Source: Clostridium sp. DL-VIII (GTDB lineage Bacteria; Bacillota; Clostridia; Clostridiales; Clostridiaceae). From it: a DNA stretch of 64,000 nt. Position 1 is the stretch's first letter, and each line of letters starts with the position of its first letter. The stretch lies in contig NZ_CM001240.1 of the NCBI RefSeq assembly GCF_000230835.1, forward strand, positions 2,704,679 through 2,768,678. The letters are read 5' to 3'. Made by a program: the position numbers and the translations under genes. Below are positions 32,287-63,486 of the stretch, in pieces. The notes beneath the pieces were generated by a model. That model saw only the letters and a list, made by a program, of their open reading frames with translations, was not told the origin of the DNA and did not search any database.

Positions 32287-32425
32287 TTCTAATGTTATTC
32301 TTGCGTTAAAAGAATGAAAATGAGAACTCGGGATAGAGTTATAGTTGTTTTTTACTACCAACCAAATAGGACAAGTGAAGGATAGGTATGATAAGAGTAG
32401 ATATAATCTGAAAGGAGATTTATTT

Positions 32426-43617: not shown

Positions 43618-44706
43618 ATGAAAAAGAGAAAAATAACAACATTACTGTTAACAGGTGTAATAAGCTTGGTATTATTAGCTGGATGTGGAAATATAGCAGC
43701 TAAAGATGATACTAATTCAAAAGTTCTGTCTATTGCAGAGCAGGGAGTCTTCTCAGCAGGAGGAACCACAGTGACTTCTAATGGTACATTTAATCCAGAG
43801 AACCAGTGGGAGGAAAGTGGAGCAGGACAGACTTCTCATGTAGATCACGCGAATGTACTCTACCAAATTCCGAAAAATAATACAGAACTCCCAATGGTGT
43901 TTCTACATGGCTATGGACAGTCGCGTATGGGCTGGATGACAACGCCAGATGGCAGGGAAGGCTGGTCTGATATGTTTTTGAGAAAAGGACACGGTGTATT
44001 CCTAGTGGATGAACCGAGACGTGGAGAGGCTGGTATGACTTCTGTAAGTGGTGATATCAGCACAAAGACATTAGATCAGCGCTGGTATACCCAGTTTAGA
44101 ATCGGACGCTGGGAGGGTGGAAAATCTGTTGTCAATGAAGGATCTCAGTTCCCGAATGATGATGCATCCGTAGATCAGTTCTTTAGACAGATGACACCGG
44201 ATACAGGTATGAAATCAGATATGGGAGCAGACTTTGATAATAAGACAGTGGCAAAGGCGTTAGCTGCAACAATTGATGAAGTATATAAAAGAACAGGAAA
44301 AAATTCTATTCTAGTAACACATTCTCAAGGAGGTGGTCCAGGATGGACAGCAGCTGGATACACAGATCACATTGCAGCAATCATTGCAATCGAGCCAGGC
44401 GGAGCACCAGCTGCTGGCTCAGAGGATTTTAAGGCAGTTACAGAGAAGAATATACCAGTGACATTTTATTTTGGTGATTATATCGATAATGGGGATCCGT
44501 CCATTCAGGCAACAAAGATGTGGCAGGCAATGCGTCAGACTTGCTATGATTTTGCGGATACTTATACCGCTCAAGGTGGAAATTGTACGGTAGTAGATCT
44601 TCCTAAGGAAGGTATTACAGGAAATGATCATTTTATGTTCGAGGATTTAAATAATGGTGTGATAGCTGATCATATTGAAAAGTGGATTCAGAAGAATGTT
44701 AAATAA
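43618..44706 (+). CDS. lipoprotein alpha/beta hydrolase
   Basis: A 362-residue lipoprotein with a type II signal ending LLAGC (Cys23), so it is anchored outside the cell membrane. FLHGYGQSRMGW is near residue 95 and the nucleophile elbow is THSQGGGPGW with Ser236. A late NDHFMFED may supply the histidine. It probably hydrolyses an ester or lactone. AAAGGGGG precedes the ATG and the AKR gene ends 36 bases upstream, so they are likely one operon. A broken relative is at 51500-51999. Confidence 0.85.
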   Translation: MKKRKITTLLLTGVISLVLLAGCGNIAAKDDTNSKVLSIAEQGVFSAGGTTVTSNGTFNPENQWEESGAGQTSHVDHANVLYQIPKNNTELPMVFLHGYGQSRMGWMTTPDGREGWSDMFLRKGHGVFLVDEPRRGEAGMTSVSGDISTKTLDQRWYTQFRIGRWEGGKSVVNEGSQFPNDDASVDQFFRQMTPDTGMKSDMGADFDNKTVAKALAATIDEVYKRTGKNSILVTHSQGGGPGWTAAGYTDHIAAIIAIEPGGAPAAGSEDFKAVTEKNIPVTFYFGDYIDNGDPSIQATKMWQAMRQTCYDFADTYTAQGGNCTVVDLPKEGITGNDHFMFEDLNNGVIADHIEKWIQKNVK

Positions 44707-45741: not shown

Positions 45742-45906
45742 TGTGAACTTCAGTATGTATATTCAGAACAGGAATTCAAGAAGGCAGGGGTGGAATTAGT
45801 TATATTTGATAAGGTTCAGCTTAATCCGCTTAAAGAAAAAGTAATGGAAAGTGCTGTTTTTGTAAAAGAATGGCATAAATTTCTAATACATAAAATCAAT
45901 TCATAG
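45742..45906 (+). pseudogene. iron-containing alcohol dehydrogenase fragment
   Basis: A 54-codon frame reads QYVYSEQEFKKAGVELVIFD then KVQLNPLKEKVMESAVFVKE and stops. It resembles the N-terminal nucleotide-binding part of iron-containing alcohol dehydrogenases, where VFDKV-PNP is a hallmark. The first 40 or so codons and the whole metal domain are missing. AGGAGG is still present upstream. Alcohol dehydrogenase under a MerR promoter is the classical AdhR arrangement. Confidence 0.5.
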
Positions 45907-46169
45907 GAGGTGCTTATCAAAACAAAGATTATATAACCTTGCACACACAATCGACATTAATTTAATACAAACCCGCTTGCGTAAGCATTTCCAATTTGGT
46001 AGGAAAAGTAATGGGTCATGAGATGGTGGAAGCTAAAAAGCTTAAAACATGTCAGATTTCTGCATGCCAGCTTAATTTCAAAAGCATGAAAGCACAGATG
46101 GGACAGCCGATATTAAACAATACCTCGCCTCGCAATAGAAAAGCACTATTTAGAAAGGAAGTTTTATAT

Positions 46170-47444
46170 TTGAAAAAGCAATCTTACTTAGAGCCTTTAT
46201 GGACAAAAAATTTTATTTTACTTTTGGTTGCCGCTGTTTTTATGTACATTGCAACATTTATGTTTACTCCGACTTTGCCATTGTTCGCACGTAGCATAGG
46301 AGTTATTGATCCTTCAGTGGGGGGGATTATCATCTTAGTCTATACTATAGGTTCTCTTGTTCCGCGAGTAATATGGGGGAATCTTGCTGATAGTTGGGAA
46401 CGTAAAGCAGTATATCTTATTGGTGTCATAATAATGGCTGCAGCCGCACCTTTTTTTGGTTTGTTCGTGTCTTTGCCTGGAATTTTTATCATACGTTTGA
46501 TTCAAGGCGTTGGTTTTAGCGCGTCTTCTACTGCTGGTAGCACTATGGCTGCAGATTTGGTGCCTGCTTCCAGACGAGCAGAAGGCATTGGATTTTATAC
46601 TCTGGCAAATACCATCGGCATGGCGCTTGGACCTGAATTGGGACTGCATATGCTACAGCAACATGGTGCATGGTGGCTATTTGGAGCTGGCGCGTTAGCA
46701 GGAATAATCAGTTTAGGAGTTTGCATGTTATTGAATTACGAGAGAAAGCGAAGTTCTGTTCAGTCAGGTTTTATTTCAACACATGAGGCTATCCATGATA
46801 TTACTGCTACACCGGCAAAATCGCTATCCTCTAAATGTAGTATATTATTCGAAAAGAGTGTGTTAACTACTTGTTTGGTGGTTTTATTCACAATTATGCC
46901 ATATGGCGCTATCATGGCATATATTGCTAGTTATGGTATTGATCGTGGCATCAGTAATATAGGTCTGTATTTTTCTGTGTTTGCTTTAGCACTGTTTGTA
47001 GTCCGCTTAATGGTCGGACGATTATCAGATAGTCATGGTGTAACTGCGGTTATGATTCCTGGAATTGTGCTGATGTTTAGTGGATTGGTTGTACTTAATT
47101 GGGCTGAAAGCTTTGCTATTTTCATGGTGTCGGCAGTTTTGTTTGGCTTTGGGTTTGGCGTGGCTTTTCCTCTGTTGCAGACCACGGCGTATATGCTTTG
47201 TCCAGAAAACCGACGTGGCATTGCCAGCGCTACGCTTTTTTCCACTGCGGACTTGGCATATGGGTTTGGAGCTGTAGTCTTGGGAGTGGGAATTAAATAC
47301 TTGGGATATGAAACAGCATTTGCTGGATTAACTATCTTTGTGGTAATTGCATTAATTTCTTATGTGATCTTTCTCTATCCTCGGCTTAAGTCTTACTATA
47401 ATAAGGAAACTGGCGTTGGTACAAAAAAATGTTGTAAAAATTAA
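46170..47444 (+). CDS. MFS transporter
   Basis: A 424-residue, 12-segment major facilitator protein. The loop 2-3 signature GNLADSWERKAV and the symmetrical GRLSDSHGV in the second half are visible. I chose the TTG at 46170, preceded by GAAAGGAAG, because it gives the normal family length. The ATG at 45996 would add 58 polar residues unlike any transporter N-terminus. It probably exports a toxic small molecule or drug. Its GC content and codon use look higher than the neighbours, which suggests transfer together with the SDR gene that follows. Confidence 0.8.
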   Translation: MKKQSYLEPLWTKNFILLLVAAVFMYIATFMFTPTLPLFARSIGVIDPSVGGIIILVYTIGSLVPRVIWGNLADSWERKAVYLIGVIIMAAAAPFFGLFVSLPGIFIIRLIQGVGFSASSTAGSTMAADLVPASRRAEGIGFYTLANTIGMALGPELGLHMLQQHGAWWLFGAGALAGIISLGVCMLLNYERKRSSVQSGFISTHEAIHDITATPAKSLSSKCSILFEKSVLTTCLVVLFTIMPYGAIMAYIASYGIDRGISNIGLYFSVFALALFVVRLMVGRLSDSHGVTAVMIPGIVLMFSGLVVLNWAESFAIFMVSAVLFGFGFGVAFPLLQTTAYMLCPENRRGIASATLFSTADLAYGFGAVVLGVGIKYLGYETAFAGLTIFVVIALISYVIFLYPRLKSYYNKETGVGTKKCCKN

Positions 47445-47515
47445 TAACAGGAGGTTTTGAAAATGAAAAAGCACATATTAAGCAAATCTATTTTAAAAGA
47501 AAGAGAGGTGATAAT

Positions 47516-48338
47516 ATGCCTACGTGGTTAATTACTGGTTGTTCAAGCGGTTTCGGCCGTAATCTTGTTCAAGCTGTACTGAAACATGGGGATAATGCAG
47601 TCATTACTGCAAGGAGGCTTTCAACTTGTAGATTCCTATCCTGATACAGCATTAGCTATCCAATTAGATGTGACTAACCTCAAGCAGATTACTACTCAGG
47701 CGGTGCAACAAGCAGAGGCTCGATTTGGTGGAATGGATGTTCTAGTTAATAATGCAGGACATGGTTATCGTGCTGCTGTAGAAGAAGCAGATGAAGCAGA
47801 AGTAGATGAACTTTTCGCCACAAACTTCTTTGGACCTGTAGCACTGATTAAGGCTGTATTACCTGGAATGAGGACTAGAAGACATGGTACAATCGTGAAT
47901 ATATCTTTGATTGCCGCTCGTACTACTGCACCTGGATCTGGCTACTATTCGGCAACGAAATGTGCACTTGAGGGACTGTCAAGAGGTCTTCAGAAAGAAG
48001 TCAGTCCTCTTGGTTTATCGGTGATAATTGTTGAACCGGGTGCATTCAGGACTGATTTTGCCGGCCGCTCATTGCAGCAATCTCAAATCGCTATGACTGA
48101 TTATGCAAAAACTGCGGGACTCCGTCGAATAGAGAATGATACTACAGATGGTCATCAGATTGGTGATCCAGCAAAGGGAGCACAGCTTATTATTAAGGCT
48201 GTCGAAGCTCAGAATCCACCTTCTTTACTGTTATTGGGAAGCGATGCAGTTCAAGTAGTTAGCGATGCACTTGATGCAGATCGTGCTGAACTGGAAGCTT
48301 GGAAAAAGGATAGTATTACCACAGATTTCCTGAATTAA
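47516..48338 (+). pseudogene. short-chain dehydrogenase/reductase, frameshifted
   Basis: The first frame from the ATG at 47516 (site AGAGAGGTG) reads MPTWLITGCSSGFGRNLVQ and AVITARRL, the Rossmann nucleotide motif, then stops. The remainder continues in the +1 frame from about 47610 with LVDSYPDTALAIQLDVTN, VLVNNAGHGYRAA, the YxxxK pair in GYYSATKCALEG and EPGAFRTDF. One extra base near 47610-47620 breaks an otherwise complete SDR of about 270 residues. A sequencing error or phase variation is possible. It follows the MFS gene in the same orientation. Confidence 0.8.
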
Positions 48339-48691
48339 GTGAATTCTCATAGATATTTGGTAACGAATACTGAAATAAATTAATTTAATAGAAATTATAT
48401 AACATTAATTAAATTCTTAATTGCATTTAATTGAAAAGTGCAGAGGGGTTTTATCATATATTTTGATAAGAGAAGATATTTTATCAATTGGAGTAAATTC
48501 TAAGTGATAAAATGTTTTTTAAAAGAACGATTAATAGTTTAAATAAAATATGGTGTAAGTTATGCTTACATGGCATTTTAAAGTGTAGAAGGGAGGAAGA
48601 AAATATCGAGGTCTGCATATCTCGATGTTTTTCTATGTAATAGTTAAGAATAATAATGATTATATTACTTAACATAATAGGGGATGAAAGA
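48339..48691. other. intergenic region with two hairpins
   Basis: No gene. A hairpin at about 48549-48579 (TGTAAG / CTTACA) and a terminator-like one at 48605-48632 (ATCGAG / CTCGAT then GTTTTTC) separate the SDR gene from the DUF4405 gene. Confidence 0.5.
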
Positions 48692-49390
48692 ATGACAGCA
48701 AAGCTGAAATTTAAAATTACAATTGATATTTTATTAACTGTGCTACTACCAGTTCTTATGGCCTATGCGCTAACAGGCCAGAAAGTACATGAATGGATTG
48801 GAGCGGTGATGTTTGCAGCGTTTATCATCCATAATGTCCTAAATGCCAATTGGTATCTAAATTTATTCCGAGGAAAATACACACCGCAGCGAATCTTGCA
48901 GACTGCTATCAATCTGATGGTGTTTGTATCTATGATTGGATTAATGATTAGTGGCATTATTATGTCACGCTATGTGTTTTCTTTTCTGCCCATAAATGGA
49001 AGCGCATCCTTTGCACGGGAACTGCATATGATGTCAGCGTATTGGGGATTTGTTTTAATGTCTTTGCATCTTGGTATGCATGGAAACATGATTAAAGGTA
49101 TAGTCAGTAAGTCATCTGGAATTCAGTCGGGTTCTCGTCCATATAAAGCAGTACTTTCATTGATGGAAATTACGATTTCCTATTATGGTTTATATGCCTT
49201 TATTAAAAATGATATAACCTCTTACATGTTTTTGAAAAACATATTTGTATTCTTTGATCCTAATCAGCCAGTAATACTATTCTTTGCTGAATATATAGCT
49301 ATGATGATGTTATTTGCATGTGTTGCATATTATTTTTCAATGCTTTTACAGATATATACCCGCAAAAAACATCAGAAGAGATATAAATAG
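48692..49390 (+). CDS. DUF4405 membrane protein (cytochrome b-like)
   Basis: A 232-residue integral membrane protein with about six hydrophobic segments of the DUF4405 family. Histidines suited to haem ligation are regularly placed: KVHEWIG, FIIHNVLN, ELHMMSAYWGF and SLHLGMHG. Such proteins are regarded as membrane cytochrome-like electron carriers and often occur beside exported flavoproteins. AATAGGGGATGAAAG precedes the ATG at 48692. It lies upstream of a flavin reductase and two lipoprotein flavodoxins, so it could pass electrons across the membrane; that role is inference. Confidence 0.75.
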   Translation: MTAKLKFKITIDILLTVLLPVLMAYALTGQKVHEWIGAVMFAAFIIHNVLNANWYLNLFRGKYTPQRILQTAINLMVFVSMIGLMISGIIMSRYVFSFLPINGSASFARELHMMSAYWGFVLMSLHLGMHGNMIKGIVSKSSGIQSGSRPYKAVLSLMEITISYYGLYAFIKNDITSYMFLKNIFVFFDPNQPVILFFAEYIAMMMLFACVAYYFSMLLQIYTRKKHQKRYK

Positions 49391-49402
49391 CATTTGGATG
49401 AG

Positions 49403-49525
49403 CCAAGGTACTTGCACTTATAACAACTCCATACGCAAAAGGGCTTTTCCAGGAAGGAATTGTTCAGATCAGTGCAGAAACAATGGAAGTTAATTTTACT
49501 TTATAGGAAGCTAGTGAAATGTCTT
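49403..49525 (+). pseudogene. carboxylesterase fragment
   Basis: KVLALITTPYAKGLFQEGIV followed by a VNFT segment matches residues just after the nucleophile elbow of the two carboxylesterases at 28941 and 35877. Only about 40 codons remain, with a stop and no elbow or start. It is a relic of a third esterase copy. Confidence 0.7.
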
Positions 49526-49689
49526 TGCGTACGGAATTATTACGAACGCAATAATGGGGATTTTCGAATTAGATATCTAGTATCCTATTAAACAACTATT
49601 ATATAGTCATAACAATATAACTACCTGTTACTGTTAATGCAGCATAAAACTATATATTAAAAATTATAAAAGAAAGAAGGATAAAAGAA

Positions 49690-50250
49690 ATGAAGAAAGA
49701 TTTTGGAATAAAAACAATCGTAACACCATTACCAGTATTAATCGTAGCTACTTATGATGAGAATGGTATACCAGATGCAATGAATGTTGCATGGGGAGGA
49801 CAGTGTGGAGGAAAACACGTCGCATTGAATCTTTCTAAACATAAGACAACGGATAATCTGCAGCTGAAAAAAGCATTTACCGTAAGCTTTGCAGATAAAA
49901 ATAATCTGGTTATTGCAGATTATTTTGGTCTTGAATCGGGAAAGGATACAGACAAGATTACAAAAGCTGGGGTTCATGTAACAAAGAGCATCCATGTAGA
50001 CGCTCCAATCATTGATGAATTCCCATTGACTTTGGAATGCAAGGTTGTCAGCATGAACGAAGAACTTGGAGAATTAAGAGTAGTTGGTGAAGTAGTAAAC
50101 ATGAGTGCAGAAGAATCAATCATTGATGAAAATGGCAATATTGATTTTGATAAATTACAGCCACTTTCATTTGATTCTGCAACGGGTTCCTACCGTATAC
50201 TTGGAGAAAAAGTTGGAAATGCATTTAAGGATGGAGTAGTATTGAAATAA
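49690..50250 (+). CDS. flavin reductase family protein
   Basis: A 186-residue flavin reductase-like, FMN-binding split-barrel protein. The N-terminal VTPLPVLIVATYDENGIPDA and MNVAWGGQCGGKHVALNL are family signatures, with HKTTDNL next. It reduces free flavin with NAD(P)H or holds FMN for electron transfer. The protein is cytoplasmic and complete. AGAAGGATAAAAG precedes the ATG. It may supply reduced flavin to the flavodoxins nearby. Confidence 0.88.
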   Translation: MKKDFGIKTIVTPLPVLIVATYDENGIPDAMNVAWGGQCGGKHVALNLSKHKTTDNLQLKKAFTVSFADKNNLVIADYFGLESGKDTDKITKAGVHVTKSIHVDAPIIDEFPLTLECKVVSMNEELGELRVVGEVVNMSAEESIIDENGNIDFDKLQPLSFDSATGSYRILGEKVGNAFKDGVVLK

Positions 50251-50318
50251 AGACAGGTAATCCTGGCACTGATGAGAACAAAATATTGTTCTTCTGGCAC
50301 ACTGATTCAGAAGTAATA

Positions 50319-50524
50319 GAGCGTATGGCGGTGATGGGAAATTATCAGTTTAAGTAAGAGAGGAGAAAACTATTCAGCAGATGGAATTTACCGTTGTTCT
50401 ATTGAAGAAAATAAAGATGACTTCCATTGTAGATGGAAACGAAGTGGAAAATCTATTTGTTGTAACAGAGGTTTATACAATAAGTGAGGATAGCATTCTG
50501 GCATCTATGTCTTATACAAAGTGA
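50319..50524 (+). repeat. duplicated spacer segment S, copy 1
   Basis: Starting AGAGCGTATGGCGGTGATGG and ending near CATCTATGTCTTATAC, this stretch is repeated at 52027-52257. One frame reads KIKMTSIVDGNEVENLFVVT then EVYTISEDS in both copies, so it is probably the 3' end of an unidentified gene that was duplicated along with a flavodoxin. Confidence 0.6.
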
Positions 50525-50628
50525 AAAAACTAATCCACAACGTCTTATGTTAAGTATAGTAAAAAATATTTAAGAAAGGAAAAGTATAATGAATTTTTAC
50601 TATATGTTCATTATACAAGGTGAGTAAC

Positions 50629-51402
50629 ATGAAAAATCGTATTTTTGTTCTATTAGGTTGTTTCCTGCTCCTGTTTATGTTTTTTGGATGTACCTCAAAC
50701 GGCAGTGGGGAAACAGCAGTCAACGCTTCAAAAAACAGTGGTACGGAATTATCGGTATCTGGAAGCAGCTCCACAGCCGAAAATAGTTCGTCCGATATGG
50801 TAAGTGGGAGGGAGGAACAAACCTCGTCTTCGGCTACTAAAAAAATCATTGTGGTATATTTTTCAAGAGTCGGCAATACAAACTTTAGCGATAATGTTGA
50901 TGTAATATCATCGGCGAGCTTGAATGTTGGAAATGATGGCTTGATTGGTAGTACGGAAATTGTTGCAAAGCAAATTCATGATCTTGTTGGCGGGGATCTT
51001 GTAAATATTCAAACGGTTCAACCTTATCCAGCTGACTATCATGAAACTGTACAACGAAATGTTGATGAGTTTAACGCTGGATTTAAACCGGAACTAAAAA
51101 CTAAGATAGAAAATATGGATTCATATGACACCGTATATATTGGTTATCCCACATGGGCAATGAACATTCCAAGACCTATAGCTTCATTTTTATCAGAATA
51201 TGATTTCAAGGGAAAAACGATCATACCTTTCAATACAAATGGAGGATATGGATTGGGGGAAACTGTTAATTCTATCAAGGCGCTTTGCCAAGATTCCACC
51301 ATACTTGATGCTTTTCAAATGCCAGGTGCAAATGTAAGAGATGCACAAGAGGTACAAAGAGCTGTATCTGAATGGCTGAATAAAATTGGAGTCATGAAAT
51401 AA
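50629..51402 (+). CDS. flavodoxin-domain lipoprotein (1)
   Basis: A 257-residue protein with a lipoprotein signal (Cys21 after FMFFG), a 45-residue Ser/Thr/Gly-rich linker and a C-terminal flavodoxin domain. The phosphate loop reads YFSRVGNTNFS and the aromatic loop GYPTWAMNIPRPI. The domain carries an insert (about residues 88-108) before the first helix. Flavodoxins are normally cytoplasmic, so a membrane-anchored outside form is unusual and implies extracellular electron transfer or flavin storage. AAGGTGAG supports the ATG at 50629. Confidence 0.85.
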   Translation: MKNRIFVLLGCFLLLFMFFGCTSNGSGETAVNASKNSGTELSVSGSSSTAENSSSDMVSGREEQTSSSATKKIIVVYFSRVGNTNFSDNVDVISSASLNVGNDGLIGSTEIVAKQIHDLVGGDLVNIQTVQPYPADYHETVQRNVDEFNAGFKPELKTKIENMDSYDTVYIGYPTWAMNIPRPIASFLSEYDFKGKTIIPFNTNGGYGLGETVNSIKALCQDSTILDAFQMPGANVRDAQEVQRAVSEWLNKIGVMK

Positions 51403-51499
51403 AAAATTAGAGGTATGAGAACTAGTGGCTCAAGACGTAATTAAGCCAATATTTATTTTTAATATAAATACAATTCTTTTATATTAAAAATATATATTT

Positions 51500-51999
51500 T
51501 ATGTGGGCACGGAATTAAGTCTTGAGACACTGGTATTCTTTGTACACATTCTCAAAGTGATGGATATGGATGGGATATTGCAATTAAAAGCGATAATGTT
51601 CGTGCAATTGTGGCTCTTGAGCCGGCAACCTATGAGTTTTCAAGATGAGAAGCACCAGAGGAAATTCCTAATCTTTACACTGGTATTATGGGCGGAAAAT
51701 TTGAAACAGTCATTATATCTGATTGGAGCTTTGAAAAACTTACCGAGATTGTAATTATTATTTATTTTGGTCATGATCTTCCAGAAGAAGTATCTATTTC
51801 TATTCCCCAGGATTTCTAGAGAGCTTTTAGAGAGATGGCATATGAGTGGCATATGTTGCTAATAAATATGGCGGAGATGTAGCGGTTGTTGATTTTCCGG
51901 CTGAAAGAATTAAAGGAAATACTCACTTTATTATGCTGATTTAAATATTTTACAAGTTGCAGATGATATTTCCGCAGGGCTAAAAAAGAGGGCATTGAT
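51500..51999 (+). pseudogene. alpha/beta hydrolase remnant
   Basis: The frames read THSQSDGYGWDIAIKSDNVR and AIVALEPATYEFS, then NLYTGI, IIYFGHDLPEE and VVDFPAERIKGNTHF. This order matches the C-terminal half of the lipoprotein hydrolase at 43618 (THSQGGGPGW, IEPGG, YFGDYID, VVDLPKEGI, NDHF). Multiple stops and frameshifts separate the blocks. The N-terminal half is missing. Confidence 0.75.
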
Positions 52000-52026
52000 A
52001 AAAAGAAGTAGGCATTTAGAAACATT

Positions 52027-52257
52027 AGAGCGTATGGCAGTGATAGGGAAAATTATTAGTTTAAATAAGAGAGGATAAAACAAAATGAAAGAAGTAGGAG
52101 AAAATAATTCAGCAGATGGATCTACTGTTGTTCTATTGAACAAAATAAAAATGACTTCCATTGTATATGGAAACAAAATGGAAAATCCATTTGTTGTAAC
52201 AGAGGTCTATACAATAAGTGAGGATAGCGTTAAGCTAGCATCTATGTCTTATACTAG
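52027..52257 (+). repeat. duplicated spacer segment S, copy 2
   Basis: Second copy of the segment at 50319-50524. It lies directly before a flavodoxin gene, as the first copy does. A 61-codon frame (52085-52270, ending SMSYTRILY) can be read, but it is more likely a 3' relic than a gene. Confidence 0.6.
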
Positions 52258-52286
52258 GATCTTATATTAAGGAAGGGAAAACATAT

Positions 52287-52791
52287 ATGAGTTGTAAAAA
52301 AATATTAGTCACATATCTTTCGATATTTTCATCGAAGGATAAATTTACAGAAAGGTTCGCGAAAATTATAGATGAAAAGACAGGTGCAGATCTGGTAGAA
52401 ATTGAGTCTGTAAAAGCATACCCCGGATTGCATTCTGAGTATCCACAGATAGAGGCTATTGCCAAACATGAAAAAGATGCAGATGAACGACCAGAAATAA
52501 AAAATCAAATTCCTTTTGCAGATTATGATGTGATTTTTGTTGGATATCCAATATGGTGGTACACACTTCCACAGACTATGTTTACATTTTTTTGACAAAT
52601 ATGATTTTAGAGGTAAGACTATTATTCCTTTTAATACCCATGAGGGAAGCGGTGGCTGTGGAACGTATGAGACAATTAAAGAGCTTAAGCCTGATGCAAC
52701 TGTGCTCAAAGGATTGCCAATTCGTGGCTTTGATATGGCAAAGGATCAAACCAAAGTAATTACAGATTGGATTCAGGGACTTGATTTATGA
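52287..52791 (+). pseudogene. flavodoxin with a poly-T frameshift
   Basis: The first frame (102 codons) gives a flavodoxin N-terminus through VGYPIWWYTLPQTMFTFF and then hits TGA in a run of seven T (52587-52593). With six T the frame would continue FFDKYDFRGKTIIPFN to the end at 52791 (WIQGLDL), a complete protein of about 167 residues. The phosphate loop reads YLSIFSSKDK instead of the usual SGNT-type loop, so FMN binding may already be altered. A single-base slip in a homopolymer could be decay, phase variation or sequencing error. Confidence 0.8.
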
Positions 52792-52881
52792 AAGGAGGTA
52801 ACATACAGGCATAGTATCCATTAGTGCATGGAAATAAGGAGTTGCGTAATAATTTAGTAGTTATAGAGATTGGAAAGAAAT

Positions 52882-53784
52882 ATGGAAAATAGAAAAGTTA
52901 TTTTGATTGTAATATTACTTCTTTTGGGCTTCATAGGCGTGGGATACTTGTTTTTATTTCATGATTCACGAAATAAAACTAATGAGAATGTAAGTAGTGA
53001 AAATAGAAAGGAATACAATAAAGAACCTGTGAGTGAAGAAAAAAATCCCGTAGAGGAAGTTAATACGGAAGGAATAAAAAAGTACAAAAATTTTTTACTA
53101 GACAATGTACTTCATTCGCAAACAAACGGTGATATTCATTATAACGTGTATATTCCTGAAAGCTATGATGGAAGCGAGTCATATGCATTATATTTTACAC
53201 TTCCAGGTTATGAAGGATTATATTTTCAAGGTGTTGGCGTAAATCTGGGTGCGGAGAAATTTGGATTCGAGGCACAAAAATATAATTCGAATATGATTAT
53301 TGTTGCACCCCAGCTTGAAGACTGGGGTGAGAAATCAGCTGACCAGACAATTGCATTAGTAGAATATTTTCTTAATAATTACAATATTGATCAAACAAAA
53401 GTATATGTCAACGGTTATTCAGGAGGTGGAGAAACCATGTCTATCGTGTTAGGAAAAAGACCGGATTTATTTACAGCATATCTGCATTGCAGTTCAAGAT
53501 GGGATGGAGCTTATGAACCAGTCGTTAATAAACGTATTCCGGTATATTTTGCAGTAGGTGAGAATGATGATTATTATGGTTCAGGGCCAACAAAAGAGGC
53601 ATATCATAAACTGCATGAATTATATGAAGCACAGGGAATGACAGAAGAAGAAATCAATCGGTTATTAGTACTTGATGTGAAAAATCATGATTATTTTGTA
53701 CAAAGGGGAGCTGCTGATGAACATGGTGGCGGTGCACTGTTTGCTTATGACAAAGATATCATGGAATGGCTGTTAAAAAAATAG
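52882..53784 (+). CDS. membrane-anchored alpha/beta hydrolase (esterase/PHB depolymerase-like)
   Basis: A 300-residue protein with an N-terminal membrane anchor (about residues 6-27), a charged linker and an alpha/beta hydrolase domain outside the cell. The nucleophile elbow is NGYSGGGETMS near residue 180. VGENDDYYG may provide the acid and KNHDYF the histidine. The fold resembles esterases of the PHB-depolymerase/prolyl-oligopeptidase type. The ATG at 52882 follows GGAAAG. Substrate unknown. It is flanked by flavodoxin genes. Confidence 0.8.
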   Translation: MENRKVILIVILLLLGFIGVGYLFLFHDSRNKTNENVSSENRKEYNKEPVSEEKNPVEEVNTEGIKKYKNFLLDNVLHSQTNGDIHYNVYIPESYDGSESYALYFTLPGYEGLYFQGVGVNLGAEKFGFEAQKYNSNMIIVAPQLEDWGEKSADQTIALVEYFLNNYNIDQTKVYVNGYSGGGETMSIVLGKRPDLFTAYLHCSSRWDGAYEPVVNKRIPVYFAVGENDDYYGSGPTKEAYHKLHELYEAQGMTEEEINRLLVLDVKNHDYFVQRGAADEHGGGALFAYDKDIMEWLLKK

Positions 53785-53793
53785 ATTTTTAAA

Positions 53794-53824
53794 ATTCACG
53801 ATGTAATTGCTTCGTGGATTTTTT
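53794..53824 (+). terminator. rho-independent terminator
   Basis: Arms ATTCACGA / TCGTGGAT (one mismatch) followed by a T-run, 10 bases past the esterase stop. Its sequence resembles the terminator at 37750-37780. Confidence 0.78.
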
Positions 53825-53836
53825 GTTCATAAAACT

Positions 53837-53951
53837 AGTTACAACCTTTGGGTTTAAGCTGAAGAACTTATTAAAACTTCTGTTAATTCTCAAATTTATC
53901 TATAATAAAAATGTAAATATATAACTAGTGACGAGATAGTAAAATAGTTAA
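53837..53951 (+). repeat. spacer repeat R, copy 4
   Basis: AGTTACAACCTTTGGGTTTA, then GAAGAACTTATTAAAACTTC and the A/T-rich half ending AAAATAGTTAAC. As at 37789 it follows a TTCGTGGATTTTTT terminator. Confidence 0.7.
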
Positions 53952-54133
53952 CAATATTATTAAGTACGATTTGCGCAATACTGAAATTAGGGATAAATAT
54001 TTTAAAAGAATAACCGTTTAAAAAATAAATCAAATAAAAAGTCCACGTTGTATTTTGCTTCCTAGATTTTTTTAGGGAGGCTTAAGGATGAAAGAACGAT
54101 TTATTAGATATTAAGAGGAGTGTGTTAAATTAT

Positions 54134-54895
54134 ATGAAAAAATTATTTGCTTTTGTGATGACCTGTGTTCTTTTATTAAGTTTTGTTGGGTGCAGCAAAA
54201 CAGGTGCATCCTCTGCTGACAATTCAAAGCTTGATTCATCTGATACCGCAAAGAACGATACAGATGGTGCGTCCAGCCAAAGTGAAGCATCTAAGGAATC
54301 TACTTCATCTAGCAAAACTACTGCCCCTACTGAGAAAGACTCAAAAACACTTGTTGTTTATTTTTCTATGCCAGAAACCACAGATCCGAGCAATATGACC
54401 AAGGAGGAAGACAACAGTACTGTGGTCATTGATGGAAAAGTTTTGGGAAATACACAGTATATGGCTTACGTGATTCAGGAGAATACAGGTGCAGATATTT
54501 TCCGCATTGAGCCTGAAACACCTTATCCTACTAATCACGCCACTCTTGTAGATTTAGCAGCAGAAGAACAGGATAAAAATGCGCGTCCTGTAATCAAATC
54601 TCATATTGACAATATAGAACAATATGACACTATTTTCTTAGGTTATCCCAATTGGTGGGGAGATATGCCGATGATTGTATACTCTTTTCTTGACGAATAT
54701 GACTTGTCTGGTAAAACTATTATCCCATTTAACAGCCATGGAGGCAGTGGATTCTCAAATACCATCAGTACTATTGAGAAGCTTGAACCTAATGCAACAG
54801 TAAATGAGAAAGGATATACGGTATCAAGAAACAAAGTTGAGGAGGATGCACCGAATATTATTTCCTGGTTAAATGATTTAGGATATGCAAAATAA
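54134..54895 (+). CDS. flavodoxin-domain lipoprotein (2)
   Basis: A 253-residue lipoprotein with Cys20 after LLSFVG, a linker of about 50 Ser/Thr/Asp/Lys-rich residues and a flavodoxin domain. Here the first loop is YFSMPETTDPSN and a 20-residue insert follows, a variant lacking the usual GNT phosphate loop. The aromatic loop is GYPNWWGDMPMIVYSFL, and IPFNSHGGSGF closes the domain. It may hold FMN differently or use another flavin. AGGAGTGTG precedes the ATG. Like the lipoprotein at 50629 it would sit outside the membrane. Confidence 0.87.
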   Translation: MKKLFAFVMTCVLLLSFVGCSKTGASSADNSKLDSSDTAKNDTDGASSQSEASKESTSSSKTTAPTEKDSKTLVVYFSMPETTDPSNMTKEEDNSTVVIDGKVLGNTQYMAYVIQENTGADIFRIEPETPYPTNHATLVDLAAEEQDKNARPVIKSHIDNIEQYDTIFLGYPNWWGDMPMIVYSFLDEYDLSGKTIIPFNSHGGSGFSNTISTIEKLEPNATVNEKGYTVSRNKVEEDAPNIISWLNDLGYAK

Positions 54896-54998
54896 CTAGC
54901 ATAAAGGGAGAAGAATTCTTGTTTAAAGTAATAAATATAAAAGAGAGAGGAAGATAAGAATTTTTGGTTTAATTTTTTATTGAGAAAGGGAGAAGAAA

Positions 54999-55766
54999 AT
55001 GAAAAAATTAATAGTAATGATTTTATCGATTTCACTGCTCGTTTCGGTGAGTGGATTTTCAGGCAAAGCGACAGAAGCGGAAGTAAACAATAGGTTTAAA
55101 ACACAAGCAACAAATAACCAAAGCTTGAGTATCAAGCAACAGAGTATAGTTACAATCGCAGCGTTTACTGCTAATGGTGATTTAGAAAAACTGAAAATAG
55201 CTTTGAACGAAGGGTTGGATGCAGGTTTAACTGTAAATGAAATTAAGGAAATTTTGGTGCAGATGTATGCATATGCAGGATTTCCACGTAGTCTGAATGG
55301 TATTAATACTTTTAGAATTGTCATGGAAGAACGGGAGCAAAAAGGAATAAAGGACGAGGTTGGTAAGGTAGCAAGTCCATTGCCTTCCAATAAAAGCAGC
55401 ATAGAACTTGGAACAGAAATTGAGGCTAGCCTGACAGGAATGCCAGCCGGTAGCGGAAATACTTTTGTTCCCGTTATTGATGATTTTTTGAAAGGACATC
55501 TTTTCGGGGACATATTCGGAAGAGATGTACTAGATTTCCAAAGCAGAGAGATAGCAACCATTTCGGCGTTATCAAGTATTGATGGTGTCAATCCACAGTT
55601 ACAGGGGCATTTTAACGTTGGGTTTAATGTAGGACTGACTGAGGCACAGATGAGAAACATAATATCTGTACTTGAAACAAAAGTTGGCAAGAAACAATCT
55701 GATAATGCAAGCGGGGTTCTGGATAAGGTTTTAATTAGCAGAGCAGCTAATGCTACAAATAAATAA
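54999..55766 (+). CDS. exported carboxymuconolactone decarboxylase family protein
   Basis: A 255-residue protein with a signal peptide (about residues 1-24) and two CMD domains, each with the helical AhpD-like core (SIVTIAAFTANGDLEKL and EIATISALSSIDG). The catalytic Cys-x-x-Cys of AhpD is absent, so peroxidase activity is unlikely. CMD proteins decarboxylate lactones or act in unclear redox reactions. An exported form is unusual. GAAAGGGAGAAG precedes the ATG. It lies between a lipoprotein flavodoxin and a lipoprotein cupin, suggesting a joint extracellular task. Confidence 0.85.
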   Translation: MKKLIVMILSISLLVSVSGFSGKATEAEVNNRFKTQATNNQSLSIKQQSIVTIAAFTANGDLEKLKIALNEGLDAGLTVNEIKEILVQMYAYAGFPRSLNGINTFRIVMEEREQKGIKDEVGKVASPLPSNKSSIELGTEIEASLTGMPAGSGNTFVPVIDDFLKGHLFGDIFGRDVLDFQSREIATISALSSIDGVNPQLQGHFNVGFNVGLTEAQMRNIISVLETKVGKKQSDNASGVLDKVLISRAANATNK

Positions 55767-55872
55767 TCTAATTCGTGTCTAGTAATACCAAATCTAAAAA
55801 AGCTTGGAAAATTAATGTTTGCGGATTTCATGTGAAAACAAATAAAATCTTTATAAGAATGGAAGAAAAATT

Positions 55873-56481
55873 ATGAAGAAAATAAAAGATTTATTAGTAT
55901 TAGTAATTACTATGATAATTGCTGTTAGCTTAGTATCTTGTAATAATAGCCAAAGAAGTGCAAGTAGTCAGGAAAGCTTCACACAAAAGGAAATTAAAAC
56001 TACCGATACTAATGATAATGCTGATAAAGGAACAAAAGAAGCTAGTTCAACTGCCAATGAGGAAAATGTGAAAGATTTAAGTGAAGGTGTAATTTTCCCA
56101 AAAGGTGAAAAAAGTACTGATACGGAACATTTTGTTGGGGAAGAATGGGTTGAAATGTTGATATCTAATGATGAGAATTTTAATTGCCCTACATTTAATG
56201 TGACTTTTAAACCAGGCGGAAGAAATAGTTGGCATAAACATCCAGGGGGTCAAATTCTGCTTGTTACTGGAGGAGAAGGATATTATCAGGAAGAAGGAAA
56301 GCCAGTACAGATTCTTCATGCAGGAGATGTAGTAAAGATACCTCCGAATGTTAAACATTGGCATGGTGCAACACCTAATAGCTGGTTTACACATATTGCG
56401 ATGTTGCCTAATATTGAAAAGGGGGGAGTTGAATGGCTAGAACCTGTAACTGATGAAGAATATAATAATTTAACAAAATAG
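55873..56481 (+). CDS. cupin-domain lipoprotein
   Basis: A 202-residue lipoprotein (Cys23 after SLVS) with a polar linker and one cupin domain. The metal ligands are visible in NSWHKHPGGQ and, in the second motif, IPPNVKHWHGA; GEGYYQEEGKPV joins them. Cupins of this kind accompany CMD and aldo/keto reductase genes and may isomerise or oxidise small organics. It follows the exported CMD gene by 106 bases in the same orientation. GGAAGAAAAATT precedes the ATG. Confidence 0.85.
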   Translation: MKKIKDLLVLVITMIIAVSLVSCNNSQRSASSQESFTQKEIKTTDTNDNADKGTKEASSTANEENVKDLSEGVIFPKGEKSTDTEHFVGEEWVEMLISNDENFNCPTFNVTFKPGGRNSWHKHPGGQILLVTGGEGYYQEEGKPVQILHAGDVVKIPPNVKHWHGATPNSWFTHIAMLPNIEKGGVEWLEPVTDEEYNNLTK

Positions 56482-56486
56482 AAAAA

Positions 56487-56789
56487 TATTAAATTTAAAA
56501 CCTGCAGCGTATGTTATATCGGCAAGAAGAGCAGGAACAACTGCAACTTATAATCAATTAAATAAATATTTTGTTTTAATGCAGATGCCAATTGTTTCGT
56601 CACAGTATTGGAATATGGTTCACGGTGTTACTTCCTGAGCAAGTAAAACAGGATATAGAAGGACTTCAGACTATGAGAACTTTAGGAAGAAATATGACAT
56701 TTTTCTTAAAATGTAAGGAAACTGGTCTAAAGATCGGTGCAAAGATGCCAGAGCGTGAAATAGGGATATTCACTAATTTTATAAGATAA
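56487..56789 (+). pseudogene. flavodoxin-family FMN oxidoreductase, 3' remnant
   Basis: Frames read LKPAAYVISARRAGTTATYN, LMQMPIVSSQYWNMVHG and, after a frameshift near 56630, EQVKQDIEGLQTMRTLGRNM and FTNFIR. This is the C-terminal half of an NAD(P)H-dependent flavodoxin-fold oxidoreductase; the N-terminus is absent. The same C-terminus survives alone at 25278-25472. The related gene that follows (56911) covers a comparable protein, so this is one of several copies. Confidence 0.7.
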
Positions 56790-56910
56790 ACATACGATGT
56801 CATAATATATTGTGAGAATTTACCAAATAAAGTGAAATCATCGAACAAGTATGTAAAATAGATACCTGATGCAGATGATAAATATATAGATAGAAAGAGG
56901 AGTGACAGTC

Positions 56911-57467
56911 ATGAAAAAATATTATTTATTACTACTACACCTACAGTCGGAGGTAACGGTGATACATTGATCGAAGCCGCTATGGAAGCGGCGAAGGAAA
57001 AAGGATCAAAAGTTCAAAGAGTAGATGTGAGGGATAAGAATATCTGTTCGTGCAAAGCTTGTTATAAATGTAAAGATAGTGGTAAATGTGTACAAGAAGA
57101 TGATTTTTCTCAATTACTAAATTTAATACACGAAAGTGATGGAATTATTGCTGAAGCACCAATCTATTATAACTGCATGGCTGCACAGGCTATTACAGTA
57201 ATTGATCGTTTTTGCTGTACATTTAGCTGTCCTTCCTATCAACTTGGTTTAAAGAAAAAGGTGGGGATTTTGTTGACCTGTACAGGGTCTTCAACTGAAG
57301 AAATGAAACGTCATGTTAATAATATATTAACGCTTCCAAGCCTTCAAAGATCCATTGAAGAATTTAAAACAGAAGTGTTTACAAATTGTGGTTCTGCAGA
57401 TTCTTGTTTACACAATAAAGAATATTTGCAACACGCTCGTATGATTGGAGAATGGGTTACAGAATAA
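56911..57467 (+). pseudogene. flavodoxin-family oxidoreductase with a start-region frameshift
   Basis: AGAGGAGTGACAGTC and an ATG at 56911 are in place, but only six A follow. With seven A the frame would read MKKILFITTTPTVGGNGDTL and run straight into IEAAMEAAKEKGSKVQRVDV and the rest to 57467. The body has CSCKACYKCKDSGKC, a Cys cluster common in this FMN-reductase subgroup, and YYNCMAAQAITVIDRFC. A truncated product from a TTG at 56967 would lack the flavin phosphate loop. One missing A in a homopolymer could also be a sequencing slip or a phase switch. Confidence 0.75.
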
Positions 57468-57568
57468 AATATACAGCTGCAGATATTGTGTGTTGGAATT
57501 TCAACAATACTAAATGTATAAAATACATCTATATTAAAAACAAAGAAAAAGAATAGGAGAGGATAGAG

Positions 57569-58045
57569 ATGGTAAAAAGTTTAATTGCATACTTTTCAGA
57601 CTCCGGAAATACAGAAGTAATAGCAAATATAATAAATGATAAGGTAAAAGGTGATTTGTTTAAAATTGATACAGTAGAAGTGTATCCAACTAATTATCAT
57701 GAAGTAGTTGAAGTGGCTAAGAAAGAAAAAGAAATTAACAGTAGACCGAAACTATCAACTAAAGTAGAGAATATGAGTTCTTATAATGTAATATATATTG
57801 GCTTTCCAAATTGGTGGAGCACAATGCCGATGGGTGTATTTACATTCTTAGAATCATATGATTTCTCTGATAAGATTATTATTCCATTTTGTACCCATGG
57901 AGGAGGTGGAATGGGTAACAGTCAAGTGGACATAAAGAAACTTTGTTCAAAATCAAATGTTTTAAGAGGATTTTCAATTAGTGGAGGTAGCGTGAGTATG
58001 TCAGAAGAAGTATCAAGGTGTCTCCAGAAATTAGGAATGATTTAA
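57569..58045 (+). CDS. flavodoxin
   Basis: A 158-residue complete flavodoxin with the phosphate loop YFSDSGNTEVIA (residues 8-19) and the aromatic loop GFPNWWSTMPMGVFTFLES near 88-106. It ends CLQKLGMI. AGGAGAGG precedes the ATG. It is cytoplasmic, and 34 bases later an aldo/keto reductase starts, so the two are probably one transcription unit. Flavodoxin may supply electrons for a partner enzyme not identified here. Confidence 0.92.
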   Translation: MVKSLIAYFSDSGNTEVIANIINDKVKGDLFKIDTVEVYPTNYHEVVEVAKKEKEINSRPKLSTKVENMSSYNVIYIGFPNWWSTMPMGVFTFLESYDFSDKIIIPFCTHGGGGMGNSQVDIKKLCSKSNVLRGFSISGGSVSMSEEVSRCLQKLGMI

Positions 58046-58079
58046 TAAATAAAAGATAGTGAAAGGTCGGGATTAAAAA

Positions 58080-59045
58080 ATGAAAAAACGTAAATTAGGA
58101 AATAGTAATCTTGAGGTCTCTGGAATTGGTCTAGGATGTATGGGGATGGATCATGCTTATGGACAAGCAGCAGACCGTGAAGAGATGATTCGATTGATTC
58201 GCAGGGCAGTTGAATTAGGATGTAACTTTTTTGATACAGCTGTTGTTTACGGTAAATCCAATGAAGAGTTATTAGGTGAAGCATTAGCGCCATTGAGAAA
58301 TCAAGTTGTTATTGCTACAAAATTTGGTATTACTGGCCAAGAAATTGTTGATGGAAAACCTCAAAATATCTTAGATAGTAGACCTGAATCTATTAGAGAA
58401 CAAGTAAAAGGGTCTTTAAAAAGATTAAAGGTTGATTGTATTGATTTATATTATCAACATAGAGTTGATCCTAAAGTAGAACCTGAAGTTGTTGCTGGAG
58501 TAATAAAAGAATTAATCGCTGAAGGAAAAATCAAAGCATGGGGATTATCAAATGCACCAATCGGTTATATGAGACGTGCTCATGCAGTATGTCCATTAGT
58601 GGCTATTGAAAATCAATATTCAATGGTGTGGAGAGAGCCAGAAAAAGAATTGTTTGATTTATGTGAAGAATTAGGTATTTCATTTGTTGCTTATAGTCCT
58701 TTAGGTAATGGATTCTTAAGTGGTAAGTATACAAAGAATACAAAATATCAAGAAGGTGACTTCAGAAGTTTCATGGGAAGATTCAAGCCTGAAGTTATGG
58801 ACCATAATCAATCATTATTGGATTTAATCTCAAAAGTAGCTAAAAGTAAAAATGTAACATCAGCACAAATCGTATTAGCTTGGGAATTGGCTCAAAAACC
58901 TTATATTATTCCGATTCCTGGTACAACCAAAATGCATAGGTTAGAAGAAAATCTGGGAGCTGATAATATAACATTAACGGAGGAAGAATTAGCTAGTATT
59001 AATGAAGCTTTATCTAAAATTGATATAGATGAAACACATTTTTAA
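58080..59045 (+). CDS. aldo/keto reductase (YajO/IolS-like)
   Basis: A 321-residue NADPH-dependent aldo/keto reductase. The catalytic Asp52, Tyr57 (DTAVVYGKSNEE), Lys81 (ATKFG) and a His in YYQHRVD make the tetrad; IPGTTKMHRLEEN is the cofactor-phosphate site. GAAAGGTCGGG lies before the ATG. It differs from the reductase at 42730 in length and family, so the island holds two AKR subtypes. Likely substrates are aldehydes or ketones; no specific one can be named. Confidence 0.92.
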   Translation: MKKRKLGNSNLEVSGIGLGCMGMDHAYGQAADREEMIRLIRRAVELGCNFFDTAVVYGKSNEELLGEALAPLRNQVVIATKFGITGQEIVDGKPQNILDSRPESIREQVKGSLKRLKVDCIDLYYQHRVDPKVEPEVVAGVIKELIAEGKIKAWGLSNAPIGYMRRAHAVCPLVAIENQYSMVWREPEKELFDLCEELGISFVAYSPLGNGFLSGKYTKNTKYQEGDFRSFMGRFKPEVMDHNQSLLDLISKVAKSKNVTSAQIVLAWELAQKPYIIPIPGTTKMHRLEENLGADNITLTEEELASINEALSKIDIDETHF

Positions 59046-59242
59046 TAAATTAAAGAAATTTTTGCATTAGCAATTTAAATTAATATTTGTAACACAGGTC
59101 GAAAAAATTATAAAAGCAGTCTACTTCGAGTTACTCAAATGTATTATAGTGATAATATAACAACAAATTCAGTTGTGCAAAGATAGTTCTGCTTAAGTTA
59201 AATAACGAAAAGCAGAAAAAATTAGAATAAAGGAGAAATTAG

Positions 59243-60040
<798 letters not shown>

Positions 60041-60639
60041 AATTAATGCGTATATAGTAAGAACTATCTGATACAATCGGGTAGTTCTTACTGCATAATA
60101 TATATATAATGGAACTTAAAGACAAAGTAGAAGCTCATAGTAGTTCTTCTATATCCAGAAAAGGAAGAAGTAATGTCAATTAATCTTGTTTGGACTAAGG
60201 AATAAGTAAAAACTCCCAAATACCAAAAGATAATATCTTTAAGAGCTAAAAGTTATTATTAGGCTGAAATTACATTTATACAATATCTAAATTAATTTAT
60301 CTTACAGTGAGTGGCTTTTCTATATGTTAAAACGGCTGTTTTTTTATTAAGGACAAGCATTATACTATCCCAATAGCGACGACTGTCAGACAGCCTTGAA
60401 ATAAAGAGCTTGTAGTTGTGAGTTTAAAATACAAAACTTACCATCATAAACAAAGTAACTTTATAAAAAATATTTTTATTCTGAAATAGCTCTGATATAA
60501 CTTGTGAAAAATTATGTAAGATAACAAAAAATATATCCATTCAAAAGCCTACATGGATGATTATATCTGTGTAGGCCTTTTTCAGTTCTTAAAAATTTTT
60601 TTACGGATAATATGTATTTCCTGCAACTACGCATTAAGA
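60041..60639. other. intergenic region with two hairpins
   Basis: No gene recognised. A hairpin at 60056-60092 (AGTAAGAACTA / TAGTTCTTACT) follows the AKR pseudogene, and a clear terminator lies at 60543-60582. Confidence 0.55.
60543..60582 (+). terminator. rho-independent terminator
   Basis: Arms AAGCCTACA / TGTAGGCCTT enclose a 16-base loop and are followed by a T-run. Confidence 0.8.
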
Positions 60640-60644
60640 ACGTA

Positions 60645-60786
60645 TGGATGGAAATTTCAATGTGTTTGATTTTGTGCTGGGATGGTGAGATGAAAGCGAT
60701 TGTTGCACTGGATGAAGGGAAAAGTTTGTTTTTGGCTCACTATGATCCGGGGATAGTTGAAAGGCTGATCAGCCTGCGAAGATAAG
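60645..60786 (+). pseudogene. aldo/keto reductase C-terminal remnant
   Basis: NFNVFDFVLGW and, one frame over, MKAIVALDEGKSLFLAHYDP then RLISLRR match the C-terminal 45 residues of the AKR at 59244-60040 ([33 protein letters not shown]). A frameshift and the loss of everything upstream make it dead. It records another duplication. Confidence 0.7.
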
Positions 60787-60789
60787 TAA

Positions 60790-61231
60790 GTGTATTAATG
60801 AATGTTCTAACGTTTTGGTTGGAACCGCCGTAGCTTTTTTCTCGTTCCAAATCAAGACTTTTTGTATTAAAATAATTGTATCAAGGCAGTTGCTTTTGTA
60901 ATGAAAAGTCGCTGATTGAGTGAGTACTATTCAAAGAGTGGAAGAAATTGAGAAGATTTTTAAATTAGAAAGTTTAATGGTAAGTAGCAAGTTGCAGCAG
61001 TTGGTGGAGAAAATATCCATTAAACATATCGAAGCATCAAATTAAATCAGCTCCTAATAAGAGATGGGGAATTTAAGCAAACATATCCGGGACTGATAAA
61101 GTAGTATGTAGGATAAGAAAACGTTATATTCATAAGGTGAAATTCAAATTATAAGGAATGCGGCGCGTAGCTTTTTTTAGTTTGGATTTTCTTTATATAA
61201 TAATAAAATCATGAACAATGGAGGAATTTAC
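60790..61231. other. leader region of the second EIIBCA
   Basis: No recognised gene. A hairpin near 60818-60848 (TTGGAAC / GTTCCAA) and a T-run at about 61171-61177, both next to GTAGCTTTTTT, could be transcription attenuators. No LicT-type RAT is visible. A 41-codon frame at 60920-61046 (ending ISIKHIEASN) is an unassigned relic. Confidence 0.4.
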
Positions 61232-63124: not shown

Positions 63125-63134
63125 GAGAGGAAAT

Positions 63135-63400
63135 GAAGATTAATATAAGATTTTGGAAAAGACTTTTATGGGGAGACATAATATCGGCAAATCAGTGTGA
63201 AGGCGATGGAAATTGATTTTTATCAACAATATAATGGAGATATTTATTAGTTACTAAAATAGATTCCAAAGTGTTTTGTACGTTCGTTGCCTAGAATCGC
63301 ATTTCTCCCAATGGTGATAATGAAATACCACCTAAAGCTTTATAAAAAGGTGATAGACTAAAACATGGAGTGTTTGATTAGATAGGATAATGGGCATACT
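63135..63400 (+). pseudogene. GH1 6-phospho-beta-glucosidase remnant
   Basis: LLWGDIISANQCEGDGN, IDFYQQYNGDIY and PNGDNEIPPKAL match N-terminal blocks of GH1 enzymes (compare [35 protein letters not shown] at 23061). Deletions, stops and frameshifts separate them. Both catalytic glutamates are gone. Confidence 0.75.
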
Positions 63401-63486
63401 TCATGAATCGTGCTAACCTTTAAAAATGTCTGTTGAAAAATAATTTGGAATTATTTATATGTTAGAAGAAGGGATGGATACAGTAT

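Follow-up and report, generated by a model that had tools for sequence, protein, structure and literature searches.

The 64,000-nucleotide stretch of Clostridium sp. DL-VIII DNA analysed here (contig NZ_CM001240.1, positions 2,704,679 to 2,768,678; hereafter the window), part of a 6.48 Mb chromosome, carries a gene cluster encoding a DUF4405 membrane protein, two lipoprotein flavodoxins (FLV1 and FLV2) and a set of accompanying enzymes. The DUF4405 clade to which this protein belongs and exported flavodoxins occur together beyond chance in other genomes, and the cluster can be read as a transmembrane electron-transfer module in which the DUF4405 protein would supply electrons to flavodoxins on the outer face of the membrane. 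The genes of the cluster are as follows.

48692..49390, plus strand: DUF4405 membrane protein, presumed haem-b cytochrome (PF14358, E = 2.6e-16; longest open reading frame, ORF, from 48656)
49690..50250, plus strand: cytosolic flavoredoxin-like flavin mononucleotide (FMN) protein (Flavin_Reduct), presumed electron donor (PF01613, 3.4e-16; best solved relative flavoredoxin 2d5m, 6.8e-29)
50620..51402, plus strand, likely start 50629: FLV1, lipoprotein flavodoxin with a flavinylation-type loop (PF12682, 1.7e-23; loop alignment and tree)
52287..52791, plus strand: cytosolic flavodoxin, broken here by a frameshift into pieces of 102 and 84 amino acids (intact 190-amino-acid copy at genome 1045667)
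52870..53784, plus strand, likely start 52882: EST, alpha/beta hydrolase anchored by a transmembrane segment (PF00326, 9.2e-10)
54122..54895, plus strand, likely start 54134: FLV2, lipoprotein flavodoxin with a probably rewritten loop (PF12682, 5.8e-27; alignment and tree)
54999..55766, plus strand: exported CMD-family protein without cysteine (PF02627, 6.9e-17; PDB relatives 4g9q and 2af7)
55873..56481, plus strand: lipoprotein cupin (PF07883, Cupin_2, 1e-12; 2f4p, 2e-41; 4bif, 3.4e-27)
56967..57467, plus strand: FMN_red gene lacking its N-terminal part (PF03358 from profile position 20; 188-amino-acid copy at genome 1050356)
57569..58045, plus strand: cytosolic flavodoxin, intact, without the insertion (PF12682, 1.5e-30)
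58080..59045, plus strand: aldo-keto reductase (AKR), named from its sequence and relatives

Export and lipid anchoring, wherever stated here, are predictions made by eye and with a hydropathy and lipobox script. FLV1 and FLV2 are alike in having a hydrophobic leader, Cys24 and a polar linker. An earlier sequence-only reading of the window had described this pair of lipoproteins alongside the DUF4405 protein, a flavin reductase, a membrane-anchored esterase and a lipoprotein cupin, and Pfam matches confirm that genes of all these families are present. It had also described an exported CMD protein of two domains; the CMD assignment stands and PDB relatives match two stretches of the protein, while Pfam calls a single domain. 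That reading did not mention the SSAS motif of FLV1, the two cytosolic flavodoxins (one broken, one intact), the shortened FMN_red gene, the second copy of the cluster or the wider set of Flavodoxin_4 genes in the genome. EST has weak PDB relatives in LC-Est1C and feruloyl esterases. The DUF4405 start at 48692 agrees with an alignment of relatives, whose starts correspond to Met13 of the longest ORF.

A DUF4405 alignment (A1) was scanned against the named genomes irrespective of neighbouring genes, yielding 51 clade loci. Neighbour families were then sought with iterated hidden Markov models (HMMs), and 46 loci served as controls: 26 loci of other DUF4405 proteins (set B) and 20 random loci of two genomes (G000 and G021). 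Set B was obtained from 31 DUF4405 loci fetched from the order by excluding three that are rows of A1 (L025, L027 and L042) and two with a split DUF4405 (L034 and L035, the latter on one contig with L105). These last two contain CMD, cupin and FMN_red, so that keeping them would bring CMD and cupin in set B to 2/28. The in-house DUF4405 HMM matches only 17 of the 26 set B loci.

A flavodoxin is present in 37 of the 51 clade loci and is exported in 33, compared with none of the 26 and none of the 20 controls. The figure of 33 comes from the script; counting one Vibrio flavodoxin (L097) as exported by eye gives 34 loci with 49 exported proteins. With the window, its second copy and L025 added to the 51, 31 of the 54 loci have a same-strand exported flavodoxin within 2.5 kb. 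A second sample of 293 genomes of the class gave a similar picture: the DUF4405 clade was found in 25 genomes, 22 of which have a match to FLV2 (any flavodoxin of this kind), against 111 of the 268 others (p = 8e-6, rough like the other p values given here), and by hand count, among the matches listed, at least 16 of the 25 have a flavodoxin match within 3 kb of DUF4405. The pairing of the clade with an exported flavodoxin extends over Clostridiaceae, Lachnospiraceae, Oscillospiraceae/Ruminococcaceae, Erysipelotrichaceae, Paenibacillus, Synergistaceae, Treponema and Vibrio, and thus over the phyla Bacillota, Synergistota, Spirochaetota (Treponema) and Pseudomonadota. The DUF4405 clade and exported flavodoxins belong together beyond chance. 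Co-occurrence elsewhere, which the sequence-only reading had proposed as a check on its suggested electron path from DUF4405 to surface flavodoxins, was found, distant phyla included, and the 33 loci set against empty controls support that path. At one Treponema locus (L099, 65-1471), the flavodoxin domain forms the end of a 468-amino-acid exported protein adjoining a split DUF4405.

Five histidines of the DUF4405 protein (positions 45, 59, 124, 138 and 142 in longest-ORF numbering) are kept in 48, 48, 50, 51 and 51 of the 51 aligned proteins; the remaining proteins have a gap at the position in question, except for one with Asn at 59. A DUF4405 protein of another organism binds haem b (PMC11334425), and the window protein is presumed to be a haem-b cytochrome.

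FLV1 has the Flavodoxin_4 domain (PF12682) and, inserted ahead of helix 1, a loop with an [S/T]GA[S/T]-like motif. According to PMC11334425, motifs of this form are those recognized by ApbE, and flavinylated flavodoxins carry the insertion after strand 1. The FLV1 loop, about 25 residues following strand 1, delays the start of the Pfam match to profile position 11; it contains NVDVISSASL, with SSAS at residues 97-100. FLV1 SSAS aligns with SSAS of the homologue P0018 from Anaerocolumna xylanovorans, which reads NVDAESSASI at this loop and shares YPTWAM and NGGYG with FLV1; P0018 is probably SHO45324.1. In an IQ-TREE phylogeny of 86 flavodoxin domains, rooted at the midpoint, FLV1 and P0018 fall within a seven-row group in which every member bears the motif (support 100/96). 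The flavodoxins tested in PMC11334425 included A. xylanovorans SHO45324.1. Most likely, FLV1 holds FMN covalently on Ser100 (codon 50917-50919), the presumed acceptor, attached by an ApbE encoded elsewhere; by homology, the loop would be placed relative to FMN as in the published model of PMC11334425.

The chromosome has clear ApbE genes at 1305276, 2998089 and 3593793, each near an FMN_bind gene, and a weak match at 1147763, so that ApbE would act on FLV1 in trans. The canonical motif occurs in 9 of the 34 exported-flavodoxin loci, and each of the four loci where ApbE is a neighbour belongs to those nine (p = 0.003); ApbE at the loci was counted with position-checked ORFs of L019 and L020 as queries. 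One further 'ApbE' candidate (L025:6378) was rejected as a LysR-like ORF, and DESTAAT motif matches in L075 and L095 were not counted, as they sit in the linker.

FLV2 presents a different loop. In the alignment it reads MTKEEDNST where relatives read TDASSSAS or VDAEAGAS; the insertion carries no [S/T]GA[S/T]-like motif (EEDNS stands in its place), and the acceptor serine alone is kept, Ser99 (codon 54416-54418) falling in the column of the flavinylated serine. The GYPNWW and HGGSG stretches are intact. Among the best 120 of at least 7746 homologues, 102 match the FLV2 loop pattern and 18 do not; all 102 keep the serine, followed by V, T or A, and this tally holds even though the residue index is shifted for 14 loops, since every listed quartet still includes the serine. 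Because the 102 are close homologues, this constancy is less telling; the more distant L137, with the loop DNSYVEANGEQLGNT, keeps the serine as well. In the tree, the FLV2 group is nested within a motif-bearing group (24 rows, 99/97), which suggests that FLV2 probably descends from motif-bearing proteins and that its motif was rewritten and not simply never gained, although another root could alter this. In several homologues (P0125, P0127, P0141, P0144 and P0154) two flavodoxin domains stand in tandem and motif-like sites occur at two positions, in some cases one per half; P0125 also has a stretch that looks dockerin-like by eye and is not called by Pfam at 1e-3.

Absence of the motif is common among exported flavodoxins. 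When the loops of the 49 exported proteins at the 51 loci were classified by eye, 15 had the canonical motif, four a variant with P or V in place of A, and 30 none; as far as the fetched stretches reach, it is missing from every exported flavodoxin in Ruminococcus flavefaciens, R. albus, a Synergistaceae bacterium and C. polyendosporum. PMC11334425 remarks on signs of flavinylation in extracytosolic but not in cytosolic flavodoxins, and views flavinylation as a way to prevent flavin loss outside the cell. With 30 of 49 lacking the motif, the remark on extracytosolic flavodoxins is seemingly not general: either FMN is held non-covalently outside the cell, or a second attachment signal exists. 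We consider it doubtful that FLV2-type proteins, descended from ApbE substrates and occurring as single lipoproteins or as half of tandem proteins, use a new flavinylation signature of the approximate form TxEE(D/A/E)(N/Q)S; were this so, an ApbE of divergent specificity would load the tandem proteins, making them surface wires with two flavins. The presence of FLV1 and FLV2 in the same cluster makes the choice between non-covalent binding and a second signal directly testable.

The neighbours that recur with the module are redox enzymes and cupins. An AKR is found in 24 of 51 clade loci and in none of the 46 controls, FMN_red in 16 of 51 against 2 of 46 (1/26 with other DUF4405 proteins and 1/20 random), and cupin and flavoredoxin in 13 and 8 of 51, with 0/26 and 0/20 for each; these four families are the enriched partners. 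CMD, at 5/51 against 0/46, is borderline (p = 0.058), and ApbE neighbours occur in 4/51 clade loci against 3/26 loci of other DUF4405 proteins and 0/20 random loci. Members of the partner set are present in distant phyla: in Vibrio albus, by eye, a CMD frame that begins like a cupin stands in one row with an exported flavodoxin reading DAVSGAS and DUF4405, and at a Synergistaceae locus an exported CMD lies near the exported flavodoxin and DUF4405. The window CMD protein has no cysteine anywhere and therefore lacks the CxxC of AhpD-type members. Relatives of the cupin are TM1010 (2f4p) and 4bif/4uxa, presumably a hydroxynitrile lyase. DUF362 lies near the module in 6/51 loci (L061, L067, L069, L072, L088 and L105) and in 0/46 controls, and in the window at 17303-18250. 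Two ORFs of FIST-domain type, at 27081-27866 (apparently shortened; FIST by Pfam) and 32345-33478, adjoin a methyl-accepting protein at 33499-34458. A second hydrolase lies outside the enriched core:

43618..44706, plus strand: EST2, lipoprotein alpha/beta hydrolase (PDB 4q34, 1.4e-52; 1qlw esterase, 9.4e-37)

Its Abhydrolase_6 Pfam match is below cut-off.

The whole cluster lies within a segment of about 18 kb that is present twice in the chromosome:

45764..64000, no strand assigned: duplicated segment, matching genome 1039496-1057458 in three blocks of 95.4, 93.3 and 95.4% identity

Each copy has full-length frames for the DUF4405 protein, flavoredoxin, both lipoprotein flavodoxins, EST and CMD. 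The second copy has a short cupin frame, of 137 amino acids against 202, and a split major facilitator superfamily (MFS) gene. Ratios of nonsynonymous to synonymous substitution rates (dN/dS) of 0.14-0.43 between the copies (eight genes) and 0.11-0.27 against L025 (six genes) indicate that these genes are under purifying selection. Different accessory genes are broken in the two copies, namely the cytosolic flavodoxin, FMN_red and a short-chain dehydrogenase/reductase (SDR) in the window and the cupin leader and MFS gene in the other, with the core intact in both. Remnants of a small SnoaL-like gene, a family named by eye, lie at window 50381-50524 and 52085-52270 with a 112-nucleotide direct repeat (91%); fuller relatives are found in L025 and in the Paenibacillus locus L089. 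Genome-wide, Flavodoxin_4 gives 19 matches in 18 genes, one gene being in two pieces; 16 of the 18 lie in one of two islands, at 1.02-1.08 Mb and at 2.67-2.80 Mb. Nine of the 18 are exported as judged by the N-terminus, three of them with the motif. One exported flavodoxin, at genome 1065321-1066109 (L011:15322-16110), carries choline-binding cell-wall repeats by Pfam, which supports a surface location.

We assign a probability of about 0.7 to the reading in which the cluster encodes a transmembrane electron-transfer module of the DUF4405/Flavodoxin_4 kind, with a full route to an acceptor outside the cell. NAD(P)H or ferredoxin would supply electrons to a cytosolic flavoprotein (the flavoredoxin at 49690, FMN_red or a cytosolic flavodoxin). 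From there they would pass to the membrane-embedded haem-b DUF4405 protein and on to the two lipid-anchored flavodoxins at the outer face, FLV1 with FMN covalently on Ser100 and FLV2 with FMN bound non-covalently or through its rewritten motif. In the last step the surface flavodoxins would pass the electrons to a small organic acceptor outside the cell, perhaps of carbonyl or quinone type, a weak guess at the acceptor class made from the aldo-keto and FMN reductases found with the module. The recurrent company of AKR, FMN reductase and cupin narrows the search for this acceptor. We infer the donor, the direction, the acceptor and the roles of cupin and CMD, along with everything else beyond the joint working of the DUF4405 clade and exported flavodoxins.

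Several observations weigh against the proposed module. The genome search found no ApbE in the module or in the window, so that an apbE gene in the same cluster is absent, and flavoredoxin, the presumed donor, is present in only the 8 loci counted above. No flavodoxin was found in the fetched stretch of 14 of the 51 clade loci, some of which are cut by contig ends; the 14 include all nine Brachyspira/Thomasclavelia loci (L084-L086, L092-L094, L096, L100 and L101). Training of the HMMs drew on the window and the loci of sets A and B but not on the random set, and the loci are related to each other, which makes the p values rough.

A less probable but serious competitor is a redox-stress or detoxification island, in which surface flavodoxins act as quinone or electrophile reductases, with AKRs, SDR and FMN reductases doing likewise inside, so that the function would be protective and not catabolic. 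The enrichment of AKR and FMN_red over the controls fits this idea, as do LysR-, MerR- and TetR-like regulators noted by eye in several loci, and ECF41-linked clusters of CMD and oxidoreductase genes are discussed as oxidative-stress systems in PMC3426412. The stress-type CMDs described there carry the cysteine that the window protein lacks, however, and having a membrane cytochrome dedicated to the system points to a role beyond scavenging. That the exported flavodoxins are flavin-free binding or structural proteins and not redox carriers seems very improbable. The 30 of 49 without a known covalent site and the flavin loop of FLV1, which reads WA where others read WW, could be taken in its favour, but P0018 likewise reads WA, core residues vary little or not at all across 46 sequences, the proteins are kin to the FMN-type proteins 3klb, 4ici and 4j8p, and they are linked to a cytochrome. 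Loss of FMN-binding residues, which the sequence-only reading had named as a means of refutation, was thus not seen in these 46 sequences.

The same reading had proposed that the flavodoxins reduce aglycones or quinones released by esterases. In its fuller form, in which esterases and glycosidases free plant aglycones for reduction at the surface, we find this idea unlikely. The window does have several esterases, a GH1 gene and a beta-glucoside phosphotransferase system (PTS), the latter two named from sequence, and in Hungatella effluvii (L067) relatives of these two stand ahead of the module. The Paenibacillus phytohabitans locus L089, which has three motif-bearing flavodoxins, ApbE, DUF4405 and two AKRs, also holds relatives of four window esterases by the module (43, 39, 56 and 82% identity, the last to EST2), and is the only such locus among the 51. 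It is one striking distant case, but general enrichment is absent: EST is found in 3/51 loci against 1/46 (1/26 and 0/20; p = 0.62), GH1 in 2/51 against 1/46 (in the random set), and the PTS in 1/51 against 2/46 (one per control set). The esterase link is weak. For the electron-transfer module, taken as a whole, the observation made from the letters alone is confirmed and its interpretation is partly supported.

The proposed route resembles that of MsrPQ with Fre, in which a cytosolic flavin reductase passes electrons through a haem-b membrane protein to a redox protein outside; the window has no MsrP, and its flavoredoxin belongs to a family other than Fre. A 2015 study placed DUF4405 in the cytochrome b family and predicted that it binds haem (PMC5898192); that work concerns an archaeal context without a flavodoxin, and its 'extracellular flavodoxin-like domain' is part of an unrelated archaeal secretion protein. 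Another published system likewise fixes flavin on an extracytosolic carrier protein and differs in the fold of the flavin protein and in the membrane components. The closest precedent is that of Huang et al. 2024 (PMC11334425; preprint PMC10979944), who reported haem b in a DUF4405 protein and flavinylation of Flavodoxin_4 by ApbE in an inserted loop. The core idea of DUF4405 serving extracytoplasmic flavodoxins is supported here but is already in print, and the remark in the sequence-only reading that it knew of no system described with such genes is not supported, given the published combination of DUF4405, Flavodoxin_4 and ApbE. Like that system, the window has clustered DUF4405 and Flavodoxin_4 genes, a predicted extracytosolic location for the flavodoxins and an insertion after strand 1 with a presumed acceptor serine; it differs from that system in the absence of ApbE from the cluster, in having two lipoprotein flavodoxins, one with a rewritten motif, in its duplication, and in its partners (flavoredoxin, cupin, CMD, AKR and esterase). 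What the window and its relatives add, insofar as we found no earlier description, is the probable rewriting of the FLV2 motif, the frequent lack of a motif among exported flavodoxins, the set of partners that recurs with the module, and the module's duplication.

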